The notes beneath the pieces were generated by a model. The model was not told where the DNA came from and did not search any database. It saw only the letters and a program-made list of their open reading frames with translations. Positions 1-9,609 of a stretch of DNA of 39,161 nucleotides are shown in pieces (position 1 is the stretch's first letter; each line of letters starts with the position of its first letter). Source of the stretch: Sulfurovum sp. (GTDB taxonomy: Bacteria > Campylobacterota > Campylobacteria > Campylobacterales > Sulfurovaceae); assembly GCA_021647715.1 (NCBI GenBank), contig JAKIUE010000008.1, forward strand, positions 1 to 39,161, written 5' to 3'. A program made the translations under genes and the position numbers.

Positions 1-645
1 CTTCTCCCTCTTCCGTCTCCGGTCTCCATTCTTCTTCCGGTCTCCAGTCTCCCATCCCGCCCTGTTTCTTAAATTCAGGCACATCAGGGATTTCCGCAGT
101 AAAAAACAACGGAGTCTCAGGATTACTCTCCCGTCTCCCTTCTTCCTCATCCTGTATCTCCCTGCTCCCCGAAGGTCCGGGAAGCCGAAGAGTCCCTCCT
201 ACCACCACTGCGCCTCTTCTGAACAACTCAGAAAACTTTAATCCGATAACAAAGAGGACAAGAATCTCTACAAGAAAAACAAGAAAGATAAGAAAAGCGC
301 CCTCTCTAATTCCAAACCTTGCAACAATAGCTGATGAAAGAGACAACTTTGAACCGGAAAGTACATGGAAGAATAAAGCAAGTGTTAAAAAAGGTATGAA
401 GGACAAAAGGAGAAGGACACTGGAGAAAATTTTAAAATGGTCCCTTATAAGGAGCACAGCCGCAATAATAAAGTATATAGGAATATAGAAAGATGCATAT
501 GAGAAACTTTGAAATAAAAAAGTACCAAAAGCTCCCGATGGTATTAATTTCCCCATATATTCAGAAGCCATGGGGGGTATGAGCAGTAAGAGTGTAATGC
601 CTGCTGAAACCACAAGAAAAATTGCAATAAGAAATGAAAAAATCT
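1..645 (-). CDS. FtsK/SpoIIIE-like DNA translocase, N-terminal membrane region (partial, runs off left edge)
   Basis: Reading leftward from about 645, the frame stays open to base 1 and encodes several hydrophobic segments, then a hydrophilic acidic and proline-rich linker. A segment of the form G-x-x-G-x-F then FSYASFYIPIYFI resembles the third and fourth membrane-helix region of the FtsK 4TM domain, which anchors the translocase at the division septum. The linker (GGTLRLPGPSGSREIQ, then repeated E/R/P-rich stretches) also fits the low-complexity region between the FtsK membrane domain and its motor. The motor domain lies beyond the window. GC content and codon use (CCG, GGG, AGG) are clearly higher than in the sequence to the right. 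The 5' end is not native: the frame runs without a break into an archaeal primase start at about 620-650. FtsK is the best guess; a spirochaete source is only an impression. Confidence 0.5.
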
Positions 646-871
646 CTCTTTCAAGAATATATGGTTTTGATGCCTGACCATCAATAATATCAGATTTGTA
701 AATTCCTCCCTCTGTAGATACTTTGAGCCTATGAAATGCTTTTTCAACTGATGATTTGAGATCAGGATCTGTACCAAATTGAACTAGAGGAAATCCTTTG
801 TCTTTTAGATACTGGCCAGCATCAGTCAAGAAAGGATATTTTGCTTTTTCATCTGGTCCAAGTTCTAGCAT
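626..871 (-). CDS. priL: Archaeal DNA primase large subunit, N-terminal fragment
   Basis: The minus-strand ATG at 871 starts a protein beginning MLELGPDEKAKYPFLTDAGQ and continuing through YLKDKGF, QFGTDPDL and LEREIFSFLIAI (residues 73-84). This resembles the N-terminus of thaumarchaeal PriL, the iron-sulfur regulatory subunit of the archaeal/eukaryotic primase that makes RNA primers with PriS. Only about 80 residues survive before the frame passes into an unrelated bacterial membrane protein, so the Fe-S cysteines are absent. A TTTAAGTAAA element 27 nt upstream of the ATG fits an archaeal promoter with a leaderless transcript. The gene is divergent from endonuclease IV. The identification is from memory of the family and was not searched. 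Confidence 0.6.
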
Positions 872-957
872 AATAGTGATTAACCTAATTTACTTAAAAA
901 TCTGGGTTTGATATATTGAATGCTGGTTTAAATTATGTTTTAAAGAAAATGTTACAT
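872..957. promoter_or_regulatory. Divergent archaeal promoter region between priL and nfo
   Basis: This 86-bp AT-rich spacer separates two divergent archaeal starts. On the minus strand TTTAAGTAAA begins 27 nt before the priL ATG (871). On the plus strand TTTAAATTATG (927-937) is centred about 28 nt before the nfo ATG at 958. Both match the distance of an archaeal box A from the start codon in leaderless or near-leaderless genes, and neither gene has a convincing Shine-Dalgarno sequence. The transcription starts are inferred. Confidence 0.45.
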
Positions 958-1797
958 ATGCAGATTGGCTGTCATGTCTCAATATCAGGATCAATTGACA
1001 AAGCAGTAGATAATGCAGTCGAGAGAAAATGCTCTGCTTTTCAGATTTTTACTAGAAATCCAAGAGGATGGAATGCAAAAGAACTCACCAAAGAGGATAT
1101 TGCTAATTTTAAATCAAAACTAAAAGAAAGTAAAATTGATAGACTGGCAACTTGTGCACATATGCCATATTTACCAAATCTGGCATCGCCAAAAGTAGAT
1201 GGATTTGAAAAGTCAGTTAAAACTTTGATTGATGAGATTGAGAGATGTGTACAATTAGGAATTCCATATCTTGTGACACATCTTGGTAGTCATTTAGGAA
1301 CAGGTGAGGAAGGTGGAATTAAGAGACTAGTTGAGGGTTTGAGTAGAGCAGGTAAAACATCAAAGGATGTAATGATTCTATTAGAAAATACTGCAGGTCA
1401 GAAAAATTCTGTTGGTTCTAATTTTAAACAACTAGGAGAAATTTTTAATAAGTTAAAACCTGCAAAAAAATTTGGTATTTGTTTTGATACATGTCATGCA
1501 TTTGTTTCAGGATATGATTTAAGAAGTAAAGAAAAAGTCAAAGAAACTTTTGAAGAATTTGAAAAATATGTAGGAATAAAGAATTTGAAAATTCTTCATC
1601 TAAATGATGCTAGAGGAGAGATTGGATGTAATCTTGATAGACATTATCACCTAGGATTAGGAGGAATTGGAGAAAAAGGAATTTCTGCAGTTGTAAAGTT
1701 TGCAAACAAGGAAAAAATTCCTATAATTTTGGAGACTCCAATTGATAAAGACCGAGATGATTTTGAGAATGTTAGAAAAGCAAAGGAATTTGCGTAG
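958..1797 (+). CDS. nfo: Endonuclease IV (AP endonuclease)
   Basis: Endonuclease IV cleaves the backbone 5' of abasic sites in base-excision repair, using a TIM-barrel fold with three zinc ions. The protein begins MQIGCHVSISGSIDKAVDNA and carries family hallmarks: IFTRNPRGW, HMPYLPNL, VTHLGSHLGTG, LLENTAGQ, GICFDTCHAFVSGYD, LHLNDARG (it aligns with the usual LNDS) and the C-terminal PIILETP. The metal-binding His, Glu and Asp residues of these motifs are present. The length of 279 residues is normal. An in-frame ATG at 916 exists, but 958 is preferred because it starts at the conserved MxIGCHVS and lies a box A distance from TTTAAATT. GlyRS follows 31 bp downstream. Low GC and A-rich codons (AGA, ATA, GGA) fit a thaumarchaeon. 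Confidence 0.93.
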   Translation: MQIGCHVSISGSIDKAVDNAVERKCSAFQIFTRNPRGWNAKELTKEDIANFKSKLKESKIDRLATCAHMPYLPNLASPKVDGFEKSVKTLIDEIERCVQLGIPYLVTHLGSHLGTGEEGGIKRLVEGLSRAGKTSKDVMILLENTAGQKNSVGSNFKQLGEIFNKLKPAKKFGICFDTCHAFVSGYDLRSKEKVKETFEEFEKYVGIKNLKILHLNDARGEIGCNLDRHYHLGLGGIGEKGISAVVKFANKEKIPIILETPIDKDRDDFENVRKAKEFA

Positions 1798-1828
1798 AGA
1801 TTTATTTCATGAGTGAGGAAATATAGCA

Positions 1829-3286
1829 ATGAATTATGAGACAGTAATGAAATTAGCACTTGAGCGTGGATTCTACTTTCCTAGTTGTGAAGTTTATTCA
1901 GATGCTCAAGCAGGATTTTGGGAATATGGACCAACAGGAGTTGGATTAAAAAATAAATTTCTAGAGTTATGGAGAAGAGAATTAATCAGAAGAGATGGAA
2001 TGCTTGAGATTGATGGTTCTCAGATAATGTCAAAATCAGTTTTTGAAGCATCAGGACATTTAGGAAACTTTGCTGATCCAATAATCAAATGTACAAAATG
2101 TAATTCAACATTTAGAGCTGATAGAACAATTGCTGAAATAACAAAAATAGAAATTCCTGAAAGTGCTGATTTAGTAGAATTTGATAATGCAATTTTACAA
2201 AATAATATCAAATGTCCAAAATGTAAAGGTGATTTTGATAAAACAAAGAATTTCAACATGATGTTTAAAGTTGGCATAGGTCCTGAAGAAGAAGAGGCAT
2301 ACCTTAGACCTGAAACATGTCAATCAATCTTTGTTGATTTTCCAAGACTCTACAAAACCATGAGAGGAAAACTTCCTTTAGGAATTGGTCAAGTTGGTAA
2401 AAGTTTTAGAAATGAGATAGCACCAAGACAAAGTTTACTTCGTCTCAGAGAGTTTTATCAAGCAGAAATTGAAGTATTTTGTAATCCTACAAAACTAGAT
2501 CAAGTAGAAAAATTTGCTGAAATTCAAGATACTATTCTCAGAATACAAACAGATTCTGATCCAGTCGCAATGACATGTAAAGAGGCAGTAGAATCAGGAG
2601 TAGTTCCAAACAAATTAGTCGCATATTACTTGGGAATTTTAACTGAATTTTATGAGAAAACTGGAATTGATATATCAAAAAGTAGATTTAGAAAATTAGG
2701 AGATAAAGAAAAAGCATTCTATGCTGAAGTTGCATTTGACTTTGAAGTTGAAACTACAATAGGGTGGCTTGAATTAGTTGCATGTAATTATAGATCAGAT
2801 TATGATTTGTCTAGTCACTCAAAGAAGAGTAAAGAAAAGTTTGAAGTTATGGATAATGATGAAAAGGTTCTACCACATGTATTTGAGATTTCAATGGGAA
2901 TTGATAGAAGTCTTTACACAATTTTGGAGCATTCACTCAAAGAGGATAAAGAACATGAAAGAATTGTTTTATCTTTAAAACCATATTTGTCACCAACACA
3001 TGTCGGAATTCTTTCTCTAGTTAAAAAAGATGGATTAAAAGAAAAAACAGATGAAATTTATCTAAACATTAAGAGAAAATTTGATGCATTTTTAGATCAT
3101 TCAGGAGCAATAGGTAGAAGGTATCGAAGACTAGATGAAATTGGTGCACCGTTTGCAATTACAGTAGATCATCAAACATTAGAAGATGATACCATAACGA
3201 TTCGAAAAAGAGATTCTATGGAACAAACTAGAATTAAGATTTCTGAATTAGATTCAATTCTTTCTGAATCAGTTGCATTTCCTTAG
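1829..3286 (+). CDS. glyS: Glycyl-tRNA synthetase, archaeal type
   Basis: This class II aminoacyl-tRNA synthetase charges tRNA-Gly. The N-terminus (FYFPSCEVYSDAQAGFWEYG, residues 15-34) is that of the archaeal/eukaryotic dimeric enzyme. An insert with two zinc-ribbon pairs, CTKC (88-91) and CPKC (129-132), follows. Motif 2 is FRNEIAPR (193-200) with LREFYQAEIEVF after it, and the motif 3 arginine is in GIDRSLYTILEHS (357-369). The C-terminal anticodon-binding domain includes IGRRYRRLDEIGAPFAITVD (428-447). At 485 residues it is shorter than many archaeal GlyRS but appears complete. It starts 31 bp after nfo, so co-transcription is possible; a GAGGAA lies about 10 nt upstream of the ATG. It is not the alpha/beta bacterial GlyRS, which supports an archaeal origin. 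Confidence 0.95.
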   Translation: MNYETVMKLALERGFYFPSCEVYSDAQAGFWEYGPTGVGLKNKFLELWRRELIRRDGMLEIDGSQIMSKSVFEASGHLGNFADPIIKCTKCNSTFRADRTIAEITKIEIPESADLVEFDNAILQNNIKCPKCKGDFDKTKNFNMMFKVGIGPEEEEAYLRPETCQSIFVDFPRLYKTMRGKLPLGIGQVGKSFRNEIAPRQSLLRLREFYQAEIEVFCNPTKLDQVEKFAEIQDTILRIQTDSDPVAMTCKEAVESGVVPNKLVAYYLGILTEFYEKTGIDISKSRFRKLGDKEKAFYAEVAFDFEVETTIGWLELVACNYRSDYDLSSHSKKSKEKFEVMDNDEKVLPHVFEISMGIDRSLYTILEHSLKEDKEHERIVLSLKPYLSPTHVGILSLVKKDGLKEKTDEIYLNIKRKFDAFLDHSGAIGRRYRRLDEIGAPFAITVDHQTLEDDTITIRKRDSMEQTRIKISELDSILSESVAFP

Positions 3287-3450
3287 TATGAATAAAAGAT
3301 ATTCATTTTTGAATTCTTTGTATATTTTATTTGAAGTCAAAAATATGAAACAAATTTCTATCATTTTCTAAAGAAATAATCAAATGGTCTAAAAAGGTCA
3401 TGTTGAAGAATTAAGGTTTAATATCTATCAAATTTTGTGGTTGAATAGAT
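3287..3450. promoter_or_regulatory. Archaeal intergenic region with box A for the glycosyltransferase
   Basis: This AT-rich spacer follows glyS. Its left part has T-rich stretches that could terminate archaeal transcription after glyS. A TTTAATATC element (3417-3425) is centred about 31 nt before the ATG at 3451, with no evident ribosome-binding site, so a short-leader archaeal promoter is likely. Nothing else was recognised. Confidence 0.4.
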
Positions 3451-3815
3451 ATGCTAAAGCAAGTAGAGGCTGAAAAAAGTCAGATTTCAATAATAATTCC
3501 TACGTACAATGAATCTGAAAATATAATTAATATTTTACATTCAATTAGAGAAATCATACCAAGAAATATTTCATCTCAAACTATTGTAGTAGATGATAAT
3601 TCACCAGATGGAACAGGGAAATTAGTAGAAGATTATTTAAAAAATGTAAAAAAAATTGCTGATAACACTATAGAAATTATTCATAGAAAAGCTAAGAATG
3701 GTTTAGGTTCTGCAATTCTTAAAGGAATTCAACAATCAAAAGGTGACACAATTGTTGTTATGGATTGTGATTTTTCTCACCCACCTCAAATTATTCCAAA
3801 ATTAATTGAATCAAA
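3451..3815 (+). CDS. Dolichol-phosphate mannosyltransferase-like family 2 glycosyltransferase, N-terminal fragment
   Basis: GT-A fold glycosyltransferases of the DPM1 type transfer mannose or glucose from a nucleotide sugar to a polyprenyl phosphate at the membrane. The first about 122 residues contain ISIIIPTYNESENI, IVVDDNSPDGT (the nucleotide-binding aspartates) and VVMDCDFSHPP (the metal-binding DxD region), which fit DPM1-like proteins. The authentic sequence ends near PQIIPKLIES. The apparent C-terminal residues (KKSFISRLITIYFFV onward, to a stop at 3921) are the antisense of a bacterial reverse transcriptase gene and do not belong to this protein. The gene is therefore truncated by a contig joint, and its catalytic and C-terminal membrane parts are missing. 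Confidence 0.8.
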
Positions 3816-3818
3816 AAA
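3795..3818. other. Chimeric joint: archaeal glycosyltransferase to bacterial reverse transcriptase
   Basis: Within this interval the plus strand still reads P-K-L-I-E-S of the glycosyltransferase, while the minus strand still reads D-S-I-N-F-G of a reverse transcriptase. To the left only the archaeal gene makes sense and to the right only the reverse transcriptase does. The shared stretch of about 17 nt, GATTCAATTAATTTTGG on the minus strand, marks the joint. A short-overlap assembly error or amplification chimera is the simplest explanation. Confidence 0.65.
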
Positions 3819-4151
3819 ATCTTTTATATCAAGATTGATAACTATATATTTTTTTGTATGCATGTTTGCATTCGAGACTATTGATTTTTTGTTATTTTCA
3901 TCTGCTTTTATAAATCCATGAACAGGTTTAGGTGCTATATATTGTGTCTGTAAAAGTTCATTGACTTTTTTTTGCATAGTTTTTACAAAACTAGGAGGTA
4001 TATTTAATTCTCTTGCAGTACCATTTTTTTTGGTGATTTTTTTACTTTTATATCCATGCTTTCTGATATTCCATAATGCATATTCAAAGTTTTTTGTATG
4101 TAGTAAATAGAATTCTTCTAATTTATTCAATAGAAACCTTATTATTTTCAC
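3796..4151 (-). CDS. Retron-type reverse transcriptase, N-terminal fragment in an integron cassette
   Basis: The fragment contains the early motifs of bacterial retron-type reverse transcriptases: KKNGTARELNIPPS (residues 41-54), PVHGFIK (76-82), SIVSNANMHTKKYIVINLDI (90-109) and KDFFDSINFG (110-119). This order matches RT0 to RT2, where families usually continue NFGRVRG. Here the next codons belong to an archaeal glycosyltransferase, so the gene is cut off before the YxDD catalytic box. The start is GTG at 4151, with an in-frame TAA immediately upstream. The gene lies on the minus strand, 165 nt inside a cassette that begins at the attC R' box near 4317. Retron RTs make msDNA from a cognate non-coding RNA and act in anti-phage defence. 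Abi-type or orphan RT is possible because the downstream motifs are missing. Confidence 0.65.
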
Positions 4152-4316
4152 TTAAACTTCAGACGCAGAATCATCAAGAATCAATCCGCACTGTAACGAA
4201 GGAATTATTTAGAGAAGAATGTTACTATTCATTTTCTACTCATTACCGGTTCAGTAATGAAAAGTTAAATCAATAAGGTTCTTCCGTATTCTATCTAATT
4301 TTCATCTGATATACAA
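4152..4316 (-). ncRNA. 165-nt leader of the reverse transcriptase cassette; candidate site of a retron msr-msd RNA
   Basis: Between the cassette boundary and the RT start there is no open gene on the minus strand. Retron operons place their non-coding RNA exactly here, 5' of the RT. Small inverted repeats are visible: TCATTAC and GTAATGA around a 7-nt loop (4260-4240), and GTAAC with GTTAC (about 4225 and 4195). No long msd-like stem or clear a1/a2 pair can be made out by eye. The call rests on position more than structure. Confidence 0.22.
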
Positions 4317-4378
4317 CGACTGAAGATAGCCAATAAATTTCCGCTAGGTAATTTATTGGCTACTCTGTTTTGTTATAA
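4311..4378 (-). other. attC: attC recombination site (short, 68 bp)
   Basis: Read on the minus strand, the site runs from R'' TTATAAC (4378-4372) to R' GTTGTAT (4317-4311). Between them is a near-perfect stem, AGCCAATAAATT (4361-4350) with AATTTATTGGCT (4339-4328) around a 10-nt loop. The outer L boxes are AGAGTAGCC and GGCTATCT, with one extra base on the L'' arm, and unpaired spacers separate L from R. The R'' box CTTATAAC exactly complements the first bases of the same cassette (GTTATAAG at 5324-5317), a defining property of integron cassettes. The MarR stop codon lies only a few bases upstream. Confidence 0.72.
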
Positions 4379-4382
4379 GACA

Positions 4383-4832
4383 TCATAGTAAAAGTTCACT
4401 AAATAATGAATTAAGCTTATCTTTATTTTCTGTATTTAATTTTGAGAAAAATTTACTATCAATATCTTCAACAATTTTTACAGATTCGATTGCTAATTTT
4501 ATACCATTTTCTGTTAGTATAATTGTTTTTGCTCGTGTATCTATTTTATTTTCAGTTCTCAAAACAAAACTATTTTTTTCTAAAGTTTTTAAACTTTTAG
4601 ATACAGTCATTTTATCTAATTTAGTATGTTCAATTATTGTTGTTTGTGTAACGATAATTTTTTGCTCTTTAAACCATAATAACGAAGCTAATATTACAAA
4701 TCTTGAATGACTTAAATTAACAATGTCTAGTGCATTTTTTATTTCTCGTTGCCAAAGTGTTGTAACTTGCCACAATAAAAAGCCAGAACTATGTTCTGCT
4801 TTTTTAACTTGAAAATTACTTTTGTTTTTCAT
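4383..4832 (-). CDS. MarR-family transcriptional regulator
   Basis: This 149-residue protein has the size and layout of a MarR winged-helix repressor. An N-terminal helix (FLLWQVTTLWQREIKNAL) is followed by a helical core (LSHSRFVILASLLW), the helix-turn-helix with recognition helix around TTIIEHTKLDKMTVSKSLKT (residues about 64-83), and the wing (LEKNSFVLRTENKIDTRAKT), where the D-x-R of the MarR wing is conserved. The C-terminal helices serve dimerisation. Its start overlaps the end of the SRPBCC gene by 17 bp, so translation is coupled. The TATAGTA palindrome upstream of the operon is a plausible autoregulatory operator. The inducer is unknown; control of the SRPBCC partner is an inference from the operon. 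Confidence 0.85.
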   Translation of the reverse strand: MKNKSNFQVKKAEHSSGFLLWQVTTLWQREIKNALDIVNLSHSRFVILASLLWFKEQKIIVTQTTIIEHTKLDKMTVSKSLKTLEKNSFVLRTENKIDTRAKTIILTENGIKLAIESVKIVEDIDSKFFSKLNTENKDKLNSLFSELLL

Positions 4833-5247
4833 TTTGAATTAACTGTATTAATTTATCCATATCATGCCCCAACTTGTCAGCTACACCTTGTGCAACTATC
4901 TTCTTCCATAAGAAAGACAAAAATCCTTCGATTTTTATAGTCGCTCTCATCTCTATCTTGCCATCTTTTTCTATGACTTCATGAATGCCATACATTTTGG
5001 CTAATGGAAATTTAGTTAAATCAGTAAAGCTTTTATTCTTTTCAATCTTTAAAAGTTGTATTTTAACTTTTTGTCCACCTTTTAAGCCTAAAATGAAAAA
5101 ATTACCTTCCTTAAATTCTCCATCAAGTTTTGCATATTCAATATCATCGTTGAATGTATGCCAGTTGTTTATATCTGACCATTTATCGTAAATATCCTCT
5201 TTTGAAATATTTTCAACTTCTCTCGTATCTGTTCCTACTGTTTGCAT
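4816..5247 (-). CDS. SRPBCC-fold (START/polyketide cyclase-like) protein
   Basis: This 143-residue protein looks like a single SRPBCC domain, a hydrophobic-pocket fold used for small-molecule binding or for polyketide cyclase-type catalysis. Visible signs are the early KEDIYDKWSDINNWHTFN (the usual W-x-x-W/N at the end of helix 1), a run of alternating beta strands (GEFKEGNFFILGLKGGQKVK), then EVIEKDGKIEMRATIKIEG and a long C-terminal helix (WKKIVAQGVADKLGHDMDKL). No catalytic residues can be assigned. It is the first gene of the cassette, translated from ATG 5247 behind an AAAAGGAAC ribosome-binding site, and overlaps marR. SRPBCC genes paired with MarR or ArsR regulators are common, but the ligand here is unknown. 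Confidence 0.7.
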   Translation of the reverse strand: MQTVGTDTREVENISKEDIYDKWSDINNWHTFNDDIEYAKLDGEFKEGNFFILGLKGGQKVKIQLLKIEKNKSFTDLTKFPLAKMYGIHEVIEKDGKIEMRATIKIEGFLSFLWKKIVAQGVADKLGHDMDKLIQLIQNEKQK

Positions 5248-5272
5248 TTGTGTTCCTTTTAGTAAAATAATA

Positions 5273-5294
5273 TATAGTATGCAAGTTTACTATA
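5273..5294 (-). promoter_or_regulatory. Palindromic operator upstream of the SRPBCC-marR cassette operon
   Basis: A perfect 7-bp inverted repeat, TATAGTA (5273-5279) and TACTATA (5288-5294), is separated by 8 bp. It lies 26 bp upstream of the SRPBCC start in AT-rich promoter-like sequence. Its size and symmetry fit a MarR-type dimer site, and the operon encodes a MarR protein. Binding is inferred. Confidence 0.45.
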
Positions 5295-5317
5295 ATAATC
5301 TTAAAAGGTTCTTTGAC

Positions 5318-5420
5318 TTATAACGCTCGCATCACAGGCTGCCGTGAGTGGCGTAAATTTTGCGTCTTTTTGCAAAATTTGTGACGCTTACGGCAGTCCT
5401 AGTGGATGCGATTGTTAGCC
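5318..5420 (-). other. attC: attC recombination site (103 bp) with extrahelical bases
   Basis: On the minus strand the site starts with R'' GGCTAAC (5420-5414) and ends with R' GTTATAA (5324-5318). The arms CGCATCCACTAGGACTGCCG and ACGGCAGCCTGTGATGCG pair through three helical blocks if three extra bases (C, T, A) on the L'' arm bulge out. The bottom strand then exposes G, A and T, close to the G and T extrahelical bases that mark the recombinogenic strand of real attC sites. An inner stem pairs AAATTTTGC with GCAAAATTT. Spacers AAT and AGC separate the L and R boxes. The asymmetry fixes the array orientation as leftward, matching the gene direction. Confidence 0.82.
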
Positions 5421-5428
5421 ATTTTTTC

Positions 5429-5683
5429 CTACACACAAAAGTTTTCATTCCATAAAAAGTAAGCGCCAAAACGTCCTTTTTTACTCTCACCACCTGCTTG
5501 CTTGCCTTTCTCTGTTAGTTCCTCTTTCTCATCATTTATTTCCAAATACCCTTTAGACACAAATTCTTCGCTAAGTTGGTCTGTTGTTTTACCAAGTTTT
5601 TTTGCTAACTTAGAGGTCGTGAGCTTGCTGTAATTTTCATTTTTTACCTCTGGAAAAATAGGTGTCAGGTGAACGTAATCGTA
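5429..5683 (-). pseudogene. C-terminal remnant of an unidentified cassette gene
   Basis: The minus strand is open for 84 codons ending at a TAG nine bases before the attC at 5420, the usual spacing of a cassette gene. There is an in-frame TGA at 5686-5684 and no start codon near the 5' edge. The peptide reads YDYVHLTPIFPEVKNENY, then a likely helix-turn-helix or winged-helix stretch (TSKLAKKLGKTTDQLSEEFV, LTEKGKQAGG), ending GAYFLWNENFCV. Its own cassette start, which should read GTTAGCC to match R'' of the attC, is absent to the right. The gene appears truncated where the array meets Campylobacterota DNA. Function not recognised. Confidence 0.5.
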
Positions 5684-5755
5684 TCATATGCCCTCACACT
5701 ACTCTAGCAAACATTGATAAGGCTTTAGTGCATTTACTATCCAGAGAATAAGCGA

Positions 5756-5761
5756 TATAAT
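5756..5761 (+). promoter_or_regulatory. -10 element of tetR, possible leaderless transcript
   Basis: A perfect TATAAT ends only 6 bp before the tetR ATG (5768), and no Shine-Dalgarno sequence is visible in front of that ATG. If this is the working -10 box, transcription would start at or next to the start codon. The spacer to the left (5684-5755) holds no recognised gene. Confidence 0.35.
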
Positions 5762-5767
5762 ACATCT

Positions 5768-6355
5768 ATGAAAAAACAACCCACCAGAGAAAAACTCTTA
5801 GACATTACCTTTGAAGAGGTATACATACATGGTTACAATGCTACATCAGTAGATGCCATACTCAAAAAGGCTGGCGTACCTAAAGGCTCTATGTACCATC
5901 ACTTTAAGGGTAAAAAAGAGCTTGTTCTTGCTATGGTACAAGAGCGGCTCTTTCCTAAGATGGATATGTTTTTTAAGTATGAAGTAAAAGAGGGTAGCTC
6001 TGTATATGATAGCCTGAAATTTACTCTGCTAACAGTGAGTAGAAATAAGATGCTAGTCACGTATGGTTGTCCACTTTATCGGCTCATGGTAGAATTATCT
6101 GCTACAGATAAAGAATTCGATGCACTGTTAAGCACCAAAGCCACACAGATGAAAGATGGCATTACATCTTTACTACAAAGCGGACAAGCCAGTGGTGAGT
6201 TCATTGATGCGTTAGATACTGATACTTTTGCAGCATATATGCTCAATGCTGTATGGGGAATACTCTCTGTATCTCCTAGTCTCTCTTCTTCTAAACAATT
6301 TCTAAAACAAAGCAACTATATATTAAAAGAACTCAAAACATATAAATTAGACTAA
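5768..6355 (+). CDS. TetR/AcrR-family transcriptional repressor
   Basis: The N-terminal 50 residues have the TetR layout: REKLLDITFEEVYIHGYNAT, then the helix-turn-helix TSVDAILKKAGVPKGSMYHHF (27 onward, ending YHHF with the conserved Y and F) and KGKKELVLAMV. The C-terminal ligand and dimer domain is helical and variable, with GCPLYRLMVELSATDKEF. Length (195) is typical. Two TAGACT...AGTCTA palindromes lie at its 3' end and just before the next gene, so it probably represses the AhpD-like and hot-dog genes. It is related to TetR proteins that control small stress or quinone-response operons; the inducer is unknown. It is the first gene clearly belonging to the Campylobacterota part. Confidence 0.88.
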   Translation: MKKQPTREKLLDITFEEVYIHGYNATSVDAILKKAGVPKGSMYHHFKGKKELVLAMVQERLFPKMDMFFKYEVKEGSSVYDSLKFTLLTVSRNKMLVTYGCPLYRLMVELSATDKEFDALLSTKATQMKDGITSLLQSGQASGEFIDALDTDTFAAYMLNAVWGILSVSPSLSSSKQFLKQSNYILKELKTYKLD

Positions 6356-6363
6356 TCAGTCTA
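6348..6363. promoter_or_regulatory. TetR-type operator 1
   Basis: TAGACT and AGTCTA arms form a perfect 6-bp inverted repeat around 4 bp, overlapping the last codons and stop of tetR. A second copy with 7-bp arms lies 45 bp downstream. Repeat sequence, spacing and position suggest sites for the adjacent TetR protein. Confidence 0.55.
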
Positions 6364-6392
6364 GTTTAAGATAATTTCTCCTACACTATGAC

Positions 6393-6408
6393 TAGACTAA
6401 ATAGTCTA
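6393..6408. promoter_or_regulatory. TetR-type operator 2
   Basis: TAGACTA and TAGTCTA form a perfect 7-bp inverted repeat around AA, ending 20 bp before the AhpD-like start at 6429. It shares both half-sites with operator 1 and sits where a bound repressor would block transcription of the two downstream genes. Confidence 0.6.
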
Positions 6409-6428
6409 ATATGAAAAAAGGAAATATC

Positions 6429-6953
6429 ATGTTCATGTATCAAAAAAATGAATCACAAAAAGAGAGATTGGAAAAACTCTATAAAAAAATAAAACTCTTT
6501 TATGGTGCAGTACCTCCTCAGATGGAGTTCTTGGGCAATATAGAAGCAGACTATTTAGAAGACTTTATCACCGCGATATTGCGTATAGCCAAACATCCTC
6601 GTATAGACCCTAACTGGTTTGGGTTTGTGCGTTTGCATATTGCATTTAAAGAAGACTATGCCTATTGTAAAGCGTTTAATACCAAGTATTTACTCACAAA
6701 AGAATATACACAAAATCAGCTAGATGCTACGATAAAAGATATAGATGCCATGCCTTTTGATGACAAACACAAAGCTTTGGCACAATATGCCCTAAAAGTG
6801 ATTTATGAGAGTAAATCTTGTACCCAAAATGATTTGGATGCACTTTACACTATGGGATGGACTCAAAAAGATGTTTTTGATGGGGTAGAGCATGCGTGTA
6901 CACTCTTTAGAAATGGGCGTATACTTACAGCCTATAGTGAGAAAGAGGCATAA
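6429..6953 (+). CDS. Carboxymuconolactone decarboxylase / AhpD-like protein without CxxC
   Basis: The protein is all-helical and resembles the CMD/AhpD superfamily, with a core of FVRLHIAFKEDYAYCKAFNT followed by a second helical half (HKALAQYALKVIYESKSCTQ, LYTMGWTQKDVFDGVEHACT). Family members include peroxidase partners with a catalytic C-x-x-C; here only a single Cys occurs in the corresponding YAYC position, so a disulfide peroxidase role is doubtful. An ATG at 6411 exists, but the start at 6429 is preferred because an AAAGGA ribosome-binding site precedes it, and it leaves 174 residues. The stop overlaps the next start by one base (TAATG). Probably repressed by the upstream TetR protein. 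Confidence 0.6.
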   Translation: MFMYQKNESQKERLEKLYKKIKLFYGAVPPQMEFLGNIEADYLEDFITAILRIAKHPRIDPNWFGFVRLHIAFKEDYAYCKAFNTKYLLTKEYTQNQLDATIKDIDAMPFDDKHKALAQYALKVIYESKSCTQNDLDALYTMGWTQKDVFDGVEHACTLFRNGRILTAYSEKEA

Positions 6954-7363
6954 TGAACGTCACGCAGATTCCATTTGCCAAACATATTGGTATAGAGAAG
7001 GAAGAAGAGGGTGGTCTAAAACTAGAACCCACAAACAAGGTACAAAACCATATGCAAACCATTCATGCCGCTGCACAGTTTGCCCTAGCAGAGACACAAA
7101 GTGGACTCACCTTGCAGAAGAGTTTTCCTGAACTAGAAGGCAAAGTAGTAGCGTTACTGCGTGGTTCTAGTGTCAATTACAGAAGACCTGCTAGTACCAC
7201 GCTCACAGCGTATGCCACACTAGGTGAAGAGATGAAAGAGAATTTTATCACACGCTTTGAGAAAAAAGGCAGAGCGAGTATTACAGTGGATGTGGAATTA
7301 AGAGATGAGAAGGATATACTCATTATGATAGGTAGTTTTGATTGGTTTGTGCATAAAGTATAA
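6953..7363 (+). CDS. Hot-dog-fold thioesterase-like protein (DUF4442/PaaI-like)
   Basis: This 136-residue protein fits the single hot-dog domain of the DUF4442 and PaaI-like group, which bind or hydrolyse acyl thioesters. A long helix, NHMQTIHAAAQFALAETQSG (residues about 31-50), precedes strands ending in SSVNYRRPASTTLTAYATL (the conserved Y-x-R/K-P after the strand) and RASITVDVELRDEKDILIM. The H in the helix start and the acidic residue (E) in ALAETQSG are in the positions where related proteins place their catalytic or substrate residues. It is translationally coupled to the AhpD-like gene. The substrate cannot be inferred. Confidence 0.68.
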   Translation: MNVTQIPFAKHIGIEKEEEGGLKLEPTNKVQNHMQTIHAAAQFALAETQSGLTLQKSFPELEGKVVALLRGSSVNYRRPASTTLTAYATLGEEMKENFITRFEKKGRASITVDVELRDEKDILIMIGSFDWFVHKV

Positions 7364-7440
7364 ATAATACTTGAATTTTATTTTTTTTTAAAGTTTAAGG
7401 GTATATAATGACTCTCATTAAAATTATATATGGAGAAACA

Positions 7441-7905
7441 ATGAAAAAAACATTAGTAACATTATCGGTAGTAGCAATCGCAGCAACAGCAACATTCGCA
7501 GCGGATACAGCAGCGTGTGTAGCTTGTCACGGGGCTAACTTTGAAAAAGCAGCACTTGGTAAATCTAAAATCGTTAAAGATATGACATCAGCTGACATCG
7601 TAACTGCACTTAAAGGATACAAAGATGGTTCTTATGGTGGAGCAATGAAAGCAACTATGAAAGGTCAAGTAGCTAAACTTTCTGATGCAGATATCGATGC
7701 AATCGCTGCACAAATCACTGGCGGTGAAGCACCAAAAGCAGCAGCAGAAGCACCAAAAACTGAATCAAATGCTTCAGTAGCAGATAAAGTTGTAGATGCA
7801 GCAAAAGATAAAGCAACAGAAGCAGTTTCTGGTGCAGCATCAAGTGCAGTAGATGCAGTAAAAGAAAAAGCAGTAGAAGCAGTAACAGACACATCTGCAA
7901 AATAG
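7441..7905 (+). CDS. Periplasmic monohaem cytochrome c (c553-like) with Ala/Lys-rich tail
   Basis: A signal peptide (MKKTLVTLSVVAIAATATFA) with Ala-x-Ala-like cleavage precedes a class I cytochrome c domain: haem site CVACH at 26-30, and a likely Met ligand at 73 in MKGQVAKLSD. Such cytochromes shuttle electrons in the periplasm between the bc1 complex and terminal oxidases or reductases. Residues 95-154 form an extra tail of Ala, Lys, Glu and Val with heptad-like repeats (DKVVDAAKDKATEAV, VDAVKEKAVEAV), probably an amphipathic helix. An earlier in-frame start at 7408 exists, but 7441 has a GGAG ribosome-binding site and begins the signal peptide. A TATAAT lies at 7404-7409. A terminator hairpin follows. 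Confidence 0.9.
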   Translation: MKKTLVTLSVVAIAATATFAADTAACVACHGANFEKAALGKSKIVKDMTSADIVTALKGYKDGSYGGAMKATMKGQVAKLSDADIDAIAAQITGGEAPKAAAEAPKTESNASVADKVVDAAKDKATEAVSGAASSAVDAVKEKAVEAVTDTSAK

Positions 7906-7927
7906 TAAAATAATCTATTTATTTCTT

Positions 7928-7947
7928 GTGTGGGGTTAACCCCACAC
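7928..7947. terminator. Perfect palindromic hairpin terminator after cytochrome c
   Basis: An 8-bp GC-rich stem, GTGTGGGG (7928-7935) with CCCCACAC (7940-7947) around TTAA, lies 23 bp after the cytochrome stop and is followed by CCTTATATTT. A modest T-rich tail makes it a plausible intrinsic terminator. Confidence 0.65.
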
Positions 7948-8053
7948 CCTTATATTTACACAACTTCATCATTAAAATATTTTCTTCTTACTTTCCTTAC
8001 AAAAATTTATAATTATATATACTATAATAGTGACAAAATATATAGGATTAATT

Positions 8054-8422
8054 ATGGATGAATCAATTAATGTATTGGGGGAACCTTTGGAACCTTGTTC
8101 TTTAAAGCCATTAACAGGGTTCCATAGGGATGGATCATGTAATACGGGTGATCATAACCCAGCTGTACATGCGGTGTGTATCTATGCGACTAAAGAGTTT
8201 TTGGAATATAGTAAAAAAGTAGGCAATGATCTATCTACCCCAATGCCTCAGTATAATTTTGCAGGGGTACAACCTGGACAGAGTTGGTGTTTGGGCGGAC
8301 ACTCTTTTGTAAAAGCAGTACATGATGGTATGGCACCACAAATATTTATACATGCAACACATATAAAGATGTTAGAACTTATAGATTTGGAAACACTTAA
8401 AAAATACGCCATTGATCTTTGA
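8054..8422 (+). CDS. DUF2237 family protein
   Basis: This 122-residue protein matches the DUF2237 pattern throughout: NVLGEPLEPCS near the start, GFHRDGSCNTGDHNPAVHAV, EFLEYSKKVGNDLSTPMPQY and PGQSWCLGGHSFVKA. Function is unknown for the family; conserved Cys and His residues suggest metal binding or redox chemistry, but this is inference. The GTG at 8030 is in frame, but 8054 is preferred: AGGA lies 7 bp upstream and the product begins where family members begin. Its TGA overlaps the ATG of the next gene by one base, so the two are translationally coupled. A TATACTATAAT promoter-like element lies just upstream. Confidence 0.85.
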   Translation: MDESINVLGEPLEPCSLKPLTGFHRDGSCNTGDHNPAVHAVCIYATKEFLEYSKKVGNDLSTPMPQYNFAGVQPGQSWCLGGHSFVKAVHDGMAPQIFIHATHIKMLELIDLETLKKYAIDL

Positions 8423-9021
8423 TGTTTGAAATAGCAGAGTATATAGGGACTATAGCATTTGCCATGTCTGGATTTTTCGTGGCTGTACGAAGTAAATTAG
8501 ATTTTTTAGGTACGCTTATTGCTGTGTTTCTCACCGCTTTTGGTGGGGGAATCATCCGTGATGTGATAGTAGACAAAACCCCTTTTGCCTTTAGCTATGA
8601 TATGCCTGCGATTATGGTAAGTCTTATGATGCTTTTTCTTATATTATTTAAGTTTCATAAACGACAAGATATCGAAAATAAAGCATTTTTTATTCTCTCT
8701 GATTCTATAGGTTTGGTCTCTTTTAGTATTACTGGTGCGATGATTGCCCTGGAGCATGGACTGAACTTTACAGGTGTGTTGGCACTCTCTTTTATCACCG
8801 CTGTGGGTGGAGGAATTACCAGAGATATCATCATCAACGAAGTACCTTTTGTGTTTAAAACAGGGTTTTATGGTACGGTTGCATTGCTTGTAGGTGCTTT
8901 GATGTATCTACTTCATACATTTGAAGTAGAAGGTTTTTATGCTACTTTGGGTATTTTTATTATAGGTGTCTCTTTGCGTGTTATTGCGTATTATAAAAAG
9001 TGGTCAGTACCACTGATTTAA
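8422..9021 (+). CDS. TRIC/UPF0126 family membrane channel-like protein
   Basis: This 199-residue protein is almost entirely hydrophobic and made of two homologous halves. Each contains the family signature: TAFGGGIIRDVIVDKTPF (residues about 40-57) and TAVGGGITRDIIINEVPFVF (about 126-145). Bacterial homologues of trimeric intracellular cation channels have this duplicated three-helix design with glycine-rich kinks and conduct monovalent cations; some relatives transport glycine. A TTG at 8419 is in frame, but ATG at 8422 is the likely start. It is coupled to the DUF2237 gene, with no functional link known to me. Four residues separate its stop from the convergent YcxB-like gene. Confidence 0.88.
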   Translation: MFEIAEYIGTIAFAMSGFFVAVRSKLDFLGTLIAVFLTAFGGGIIRDVIVDKTPFAFSYDMPAIMVSLMMLFLILFKFHKRQDIENKAFFILSDSIGLVSFSITGAMIALEHGLNFTGVLALSFITAVGGGITRDIIINEVPFVFKTGFYGTVALLVGALMYLLHTFEVEGFYATLGIFIIGVSLRVIAYYKKWSVPLI

Positions 9022-9026
9022 ATTTT

Positions 9027-9509
9027 TTACAGGTATCTTTCGAGGTACTTTTCTAGTTCTTTCATTTGCTCTTGAGACAGCACTCTTTTGGGTATGACAT
9101 TAAACTGGTAAGTATTGGTATAGAGTAGATAATACTTGTCATTTTGTTTCCATTTTGGTATAGCATCCCAACGTAAGAGATGCTTCTTTTGGTTTTGCTT
9201 ATATTGTATGCCTTTTTTAGAAATCTCTAGTGTCACTTCAGTCGATAGCATAGGGCTTTTTTCATAGACTTTTCTTGCTTGGTAGGCTGTTAGCATACGT
9301 ACAAAAAGTAGGTAAAATGATATCGCAAAGAAAACAGTCAGAATATTGGTAATGACTTCTCGTGTATTGTTAAAGTCAGTACCAACAAGTATAAAAAAGG
9401 TAGCAAGTCCTAAAAATACAGAGATAACCAAGGGACGCTTCCCTGATTTGTAATGATAGTATACAGCCTCTTGGTATTCATTTGTTGTGAGTGTATAGTT
9501 GATATGCAT
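9027..9509 (-). CDS. YcxB-like membrane protein
   Basis: The 160-residue protein starts MHINYTLTTNEYQEA, has two closely spaced transmembrane helices (about 27-44 and 53-72), and ends in a cytoplasmic beta-rich domain with LEISKKGIQYK, LLRWDAIPKWKQNDKYYLLYT and FNVIPKRVLSQEQMKELEKY. This combination is characteristic of YcxB-like proteins, whose C-terminal domain ends with a P-K-R-x-F/L segment. Function is unknown. It converges with the TRIC-like gene and diverges from the FNR-type regulator across 100 bp of AT-rich promoter DNA. Confidence 0.78.
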   Translation of the reverse strand: MHINYTLTTNEYQEAVYYHYKSGKRPLVISVFLGLATFFILVGTDFNNTREVITNILTVFFAISFYLLFVRMLTAYQARKVYEKSPMLSTEVTLEISKKGIQYKQNQKKHLLRWDAIPKWKQNDKYYLLYTNTYQFNVIPKRVLSQEQMKELEKYLERYL

Positions 9510-9609
9510 AAGTACTCCTAATAGAATTTTATTGTATTATATTAAGTATTATAGATTGATGTAAAAGAAAAAAAGGTAAGGTTTATAGGTATTCATGTTA
9601 TAGTTTCCC

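Follow-up and report, generated by a model that had tools for sequence, protein, structure and literature searches.

A chromosomal integron cassette array fragment in Sulfurovum sp. with a type I-C retron as probable cargo

The 39,161-nucleotide stretch of DNA analyzed here (the window; contig JAKIUE010000008.1 of the Sulfurovum sp. assembly GCA_021647715.1) contains two inverted repeats that a preliminary description, made from the sequence alone, had read as integron attC sites, raising the question of whether an integron cassette array is present and, if so, what it carries. We conclude with high confidence that positions 3820 to ~5650 represent part of a chromosomal integron cassette array: from right to left, they comprise the 3' end of cassette A, the whole of cassette B and the first part of a cassette C with a retron. 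It is an ordinary integron fragment, and a real one, with unusual cargo, the retron being the interesting part. What was observed in the window, and is summarized in Table 1, comprises both attC sites with their direction, the boundaries and genes of the cassettes, the predicted retron ncRNA and the first part of the reverse transcriptase (RT). Neither the retron nor the probable join to archaeal DNA on its left had figured in the preliminary description. Genomes, contigs and loci of relatives are denoted by G, C and L numbers, respectively.

Table 1. Coordinates of the features in and around the array fragment, with the evidence for each.
Feature	Position	Strand	Basis
Probable chimeric join, ~20 nt common to archaeal glycosyltransferase and bacterial RT genes	3800..3819		TTGATTCAATTAATTTTGGA; end of homology; both genes truncated
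Cassette C (retron) start, cut by the contig join	3800..4316	-	follows R' of attC 2
Type I-C (RT-Toprim) retron RT, N-terminal part, truncated	3800..4151	-	PADLOC, NCBIfam, relative with 61% identity
Predicted retron ncRNA (msr-msd), 146 nt	4135..4280	-	a1 4262-4280, a2 4135-4153; inverted repeat; conservation
attC 2, short type, closes cassette B	4311..4379	-	R'' CTTATAAC 4372-4379, R' GTTGTAT 4311-4317; R1 model
Complete gene cassette B, 1,007 bp between two G^TT points	4317..5323	-	R'/R'' boxes; same rule in relatives' arrays
MarR-family regulator, 149 aa	4383..4832	-	Pfam MarR E 1.5e-6, above gathering score
SRPBCC-like protein, 143 aa	4816..5247	-	weak tblastn match (24% identity) to a plasmid gene with an SRPBCC family protein annotation
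Inverted repeat TAGTAAA...TTTACTA	5260..5292		upstream of first gene; short, chance possible
attC 1, long type, closes cassette A	5318..5420	-	R'' GGCTAAC 5414-5420, R' GTTATAAG 5317-5324; R2 model, fold, relatives
Cassette A remnant with 3' end of reading frame	5421..5653	-	open frame, stop near 5430
End of dispersed repeat, REP-associated-transposase type	5654..5685	+	core found 9 times in the assembly, up to 3 mismatches

Both hairpins claimed for 4311-5420 are present where they had been placed. Folded as single-stranded DNA, the minus strand gave a z of -7.2 for the hairpin at 5320-5420 and of -5.3 for that at 4311-4381, and in each case 0 of 200 shuffles equaled it. A scan of arm scores returned attC 1 as the top TAAC...GTTA hairpin of the window; it scored 16.2 (minus strand) and 19.0 (plus strand), whereas the best score in 60 dinucleotide shuffles of positions 3820-39161 was 15.0. 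The AAC/GTT core of the R''/R' boxes is present around an imperfect palindrome in both sites. Relative to the full attC R-box consensus, RYYYAAC/GTTRRRY, the outer R-box bases of attC 1 and attC 2 deviate, as in GTTATAA and GGCTAAC; identical deviations run through the integrase-anchored arrays of the genus, making the consensus non-discriminating here. The plain GTTRRRY pattern was uninformative, with 43 matches vs a chance expectation of 95. Rfam, which to our knowledge holds no attC family, returned zero matches at the gathering threshold and chance matches only at E<=5, and a plasmid search with attC 1 as the query gave no match.

We built two covariance models exclusively from attC sites of relatives, leaving the window sites out. 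Model R1 comprises seven short attC sites, and R2 the arms of three long attC sites, its structure being the RNAalifold consensus; two of the R2 members adjoin integrases, and the third, L201, belongs to an attC array in which no integrase was seen. In this check, which the preliminary description had proposed, both window sites were matched on the minus strand. R1 matched 4311-4378 with 69.4 bits (E 6.2e-14; 26.7 bits on the plus strand) and R2 matched 5318-5420 with 51 bits (E 2.8e-12), these E-values being rough because the calibrations were shortened. Each model found only its one window site in the whole 2.15-Mb assembly. The genus is rich in integrons: R1 matches are present in 51/78 of its genomes, many as arrays, and an integrase above the NCBIfam cut-off was detected in 36/175 genomes of the family, with 23 genomes of the genus displaying an integrase match at E<=1e-60. 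The arrays that adjoin an integrase (L132, L126, L141, L147, L142 and others) contain two kinds of hairpin, and these match the two of the window in sequence as well as structure: attC 1 has close relatives in L201, L141 and L147, and attC 2 has near-copies in L132 and L126, both of which are integrase-anchored arrays. Taken together, the integrase-anchored homologues of the same genus and the covariance models settle the identity of the two hairpins as attC sites.

The array had been described as running leftward, in the same direction as its genes, based on three bulged bases on one arm only of the longer attC. Read by eye, three bases (C, T and A) are indeed unpaired in the 5' arm of attC 1 in the minus orientation, with none in the other arm, and the integrase-anchored attC of L141 can be drawn with closely similar extra bases on the same arm. 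The integron integrase is known to recombine folded bottom-strand attC, with imperfections of the palindrome setting the strand (PMC8946536). In the integrase-anchored arrays, the attC strand leading away from the integrase is the counterpart of the minus strand of the window. Since the strand matches these arrays, and the unpaired bases lie on the R'' arm of attC 1, we conclude that the array runs leftward, in agreement with the scores of attC 2 on its two strands (69.4 vs 26.7 bits). Thus, the attC structure and direction read without tools proved correct. As judged from their sequence, the window sites possess the anatomy needed for integrase recombination.

Cut at G^TT, the minus strand between the two sites spans 5323-4317, which is exactly the 1,007-bp block reported earlier. 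Its first bases complement the R'' box at its other end at 8/8 positions (GTTATAAG/CTTATAAC, located on the plus strand at 4372-4379 and 5317-5324, respectively), again as reported. Scoring of R''/R' complementarity, another check suggested at that stage, indicates that the rule is real in the arrays of relatives, where R' and the next R'' are perfect 7/7 complements in 35/52 neighboring attC pairs, compared to a mean of 4.3 and a maximum of 12 in 2,000 pairing shuffles. The complete arrays of the same genus share this boundary complementarity with the window. The chain of R'/R'' matches is mostly broken at attC sites with R' GTTGCAC. Complementarity had been put forward as a stronger argument than hairpin similarity, but it proved to be the weaker one: since GTTA/TAAC is common to most boxes, shuffled pairs reach 7/7 ~8% of the time, and complementarity therefore carries less weight than the covariance models and homology.

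Cassette B holds two genes, both of which read toward the attC, in the array direction, with the stop of the MarR gene lying 4 bp ahead of R''. The SRPBCC-like protein lacked a Pfam match, and its relatives are rare in the phylum, being found in 3/397 genomes besides its own at 27-37% identity. The TAGTAAA/TTTACTA repeat might possibly serve as an operator of the MarR protein.

On the right, one end of a dispersed repeat breaks into the array. Elsewhere in the same assembly (G000:C1:16762-17608), two copies of this repeat flank a 267-aa ORF that, judging from its sequence, looks like a REP-associated transposase. The start of cassette A, expected as GGCTAAC on the plus strand, was not found rightward of the remnant; the sole plus strand occurrence to the right, at 7533, was rejected as it lies inside an ORF. 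Homologues of the TetR and peroxidase-like genes of the window (5768-6953) also adjoin an attC array in G408:C8 (L190, L108).

The absence of an integrase from the window, as noted previously, extends to the entire 2.15-Mb assembly, in which no integron integrase (intI) exceeded the TIGR02249 cut-off, so that the locus falls short of a complete integron. Two partial TIGR02249 matches belong to ordinary tyrosine-recombinase-like proteins in which positions about 180-250 are unmatched. With two attC sites and no nearby integrase, the locus fits the definition of a CALIN (>=2 attC sites without a nearby integrase), albeit as a fragment on a probably chimeric contig. The expectation of a larger array or a CALIN at this locus was thus borne out insofar as the array continues leftward into the retron cassette and constitutes a two-attC CALIN, but only these two sites were found assembly-wide by the two models. 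Like a CALIN or a sedentary chromosomal integron, the window displays two attC sites in the same direction, G^TT boundaries and genes oriented toward the attC; it differs in showing only two attC sites, the array being cut on the left by a probable misjoin and on the right by the transposase-type repeat. A review lists Campylobacterota among the integron-bearing phyla (PMC8618304), and both an In0 and a CALIN have been reported for Sulfurimonas autotrophica (PMC10295459). These are elements of the same kind as ours, whose cassette contents are specific to this genome. By analogy with integron biology, the array would have been built by an integron integrase recombining folded bottom-strand attC hairpins at G^TT. 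With the integrase absent from the assembly, the cassettes may now be a CALIN, or the contig bearing the integrase may have gone unassembled or unbinned.

Cassette C begins with a putative retron, whose ncRNA starts ~30 bp beyond R' of attC 2 in the array direction. The ncRNA region carries one arm of an inverted repeat at each end, and slightly overlaps the start of the RT frame. When aligned across six genomes, this region displayed highly conserved a1/a2 repeats, an invariant GAGTAGAAA motif and an msr stem in which two base pairs have undergone compensatory changes; on account of these three properties, we assign the region upstream of the RT as a predicted retron ncRNA. The best PADLOC match of the RT fragment was RT-Toprim_I-C (E 8.5e-46), and it matched the NCBIfam retron families at E 2e-23. 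Relatives of the RT are 568-609 aa long, and those scanned matched the RT-Toprim model over nearly its full length, though Pfam gave only a weak Toprim match in one relative. In the window, the RT frame breaks off at the contig join, beyond the first RT motifs. The window copy thus resembles type I-C (RT-Toprim, Ec67-like) retrons in its RT N-terminus and in having, ahead of the RT gene, both the a1/a2 repeats and a conserved msr stem; it differs from them in being cut before the Toprim part and in its probable location in an integron cassette. A second reverse transcriptase gene, above the Pfam cut-off, is present in the same assembly (G000:C87:5796-6482).

Retrons of relatives bear on whether the retron is cassette cargo. 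An intact type I-C retron is present in G074 (L228 6149-8136; G074:C1), which belongs to another family of the same order. It has GTTGTGCTA at 6149, and the R'' box of an attC, TAGCACAAC, starts at the stop codon of the RT (8077); the start of the cassette and this R'' contain a 9-bp complement, and GTTGTGCTA and TAGCACAAC each occur once in the 16 kb of the locus. No attC hairpin was recognized ahead of the start of the G074 cassette. From these features, the G074 retron looks like an integron cassette made up of a single retron. Because the window retron starts directly behind an attC, and the intact retron of G074 is a cassette of this appearance, we consider it likely that, in this group of bacteria, type I-C retrons move in the form of integron gene cassettes. 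The principal alternative is that the window retron is a chance chromosomal neighbor past the last attC rather than cassette cargo. The attC that would close the window retron is not in the contig, and attC sites are absent near most of the other retron loci examined, both of which fit such a neighbor. Nevertheless, a chance neighbor would have to begin just ~30 bp after R', in the array direction, and in G074 the intact relative has GTTGTGCTA at one end and, where the RT stops, an attC whose R'' is TAGCACAAC; we therefore regard this alternative as distinctly less likely, albeit deserving of consideration.

Among the other retron loci of the family (L204-L224), an R1 attC was seen close by only in L204, where the cassette boundary is ambiguous. 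Since most of the loci examined are without a nearby attC, location in a cassette appears to be optional for these retrons, and not a rule. In L225 (5283-8286; G447:C46), an attC and a 267-aa ORF lie upstream of a full-length type I-C retron, both flanks of which carry similar short sequences, and a remnant resembling the left arm of an attC follows the RT, leaving the boundary ambiguous.

If the retron is cargo, it would, judging from its family, represent an antiphage defense unit captured as a cassette. The RNA, reverse transcriptase and effector of a retron have to stay together, which is achieved by placing them in one cassette. According to a review (PMC12409362), antiphage systems in the cassettes of Vibrio chromosomal integrons and of mobile integrons are well documented. 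The window resembles those cassettes in that a defense system is predicted from sequence as cargo, and differs from them in phylum; no retron is named in the consulted passages of that review. The retron is thus probably carried by an environmental chromosomal integron of a bacterium other than Vibrio and, if this is true, integrons outside Vibrio also carry antiphage defense, among it an RNA-templated system contained whole in a single cassette. A search of the accessible literature found no paper describing a retron as an integron cassette.

The left edge of the array is formed by archaeal DNA. Positions 1-3819 of the window are of Nitrosopumilus type and encode PriL, endonuclease IV, GlyRS and part of a glycosyltransferase; the GlyRS is 99% identical to that of the archaeal MAG NORP47, and the archaeal part, which extends to the contig end, matches an archaeal MAG over 3.2 kb at 96% nucleotide identity. 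Homology to many archaeal relatives stops at 3819-3820. The archaeal glycosyltransferase and bacterial RT genes meet head-on at the join, each of them truncated, and the ~20 nt that they share (TTGATTCAATTAATTTTGGA) are found with one mismatch in NORP47. The rest of the contig is bacterial, since archaeal ribosomal protein L21e is absent from the assembly, pieces of 5756-9510 are matched in genomes of the same genus, and the window encodes UvrA, PolA, MltB and a fused CcsBA. The best PDB match of the last of these is 7s9y, which we take to be a Helicobacter hepaticus protein. Taken together, these findings indicate that the contig is almost certainly chimeric, with the archaeal DNA left of ~3819 joined to it by a probable assembly error: head-on truncated genes sharing ~20 nt are what a k-mer misjoin would give. 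Because the join cuts the RT gene, the C-terminal part of the retron and its attC would have been lost.

That the junction near 3810 is instead genuine, arising from horizontal transfer or rearrangement and leaving the truncated RT as a real pseudogene at the array end, is very improbable. The contig sequence is continuous through the junction, as a real event requires, but both genes at this point are truncated head-on, the archaeal part is nearly identical to an archaeal MAG over 3.2 kb and continues to the contig end, and the ~20 nt at the junction are common to both parents. We accordingly rejected a real archaeal transfer. With the misjoin as the preferred reading, users of the first 3.8 kb of this public genome would credit archaeal genes to this bacterium.

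Two further alternatives have almost nothing left to recommend them. The RT fragment could in principle belong to a group II intron targeting attC (group IIC-attC type), as it lies directly beyond an attC and is matched weakly by group II RT families (E 2.8e-8). We rejected this as extremely improbable since retron models score far better (PADLOC E 8.5e-46, NCBIfam 2e-23), the gap between attC and RT is only ~160 nt and holds the a1/a2 repeats as well as the conserved msr stem, and the relatives of the RT are full-length RT-Toprim retrons. Equally remote is the view that both hairpins are rho-independent terminators or unrelated inverted repeats whose cassette-like boundary is coincidental: although a scan of the plus strand listed stems resembling terminators within the longer hairpin, and good folding is expected of any strong inverted repeat, the whole sites, R boxes included, were matched by covariance models from integrase-anchored arrays, and near-copies of them delimit cassettes in many arrays of the same genus.

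Two other elements were observed in relatives. A longer repeated block (GGGGGCG-GGGCTGAACACCC...) with attC-like arms of its own recurs inside the arrays of several genomes (L191, L197, L203 and L142), and another long GC-rich attC-like palindrome (GTGCAACGGGCGCGCTGATC...) is present in two genomes (L201, L128).
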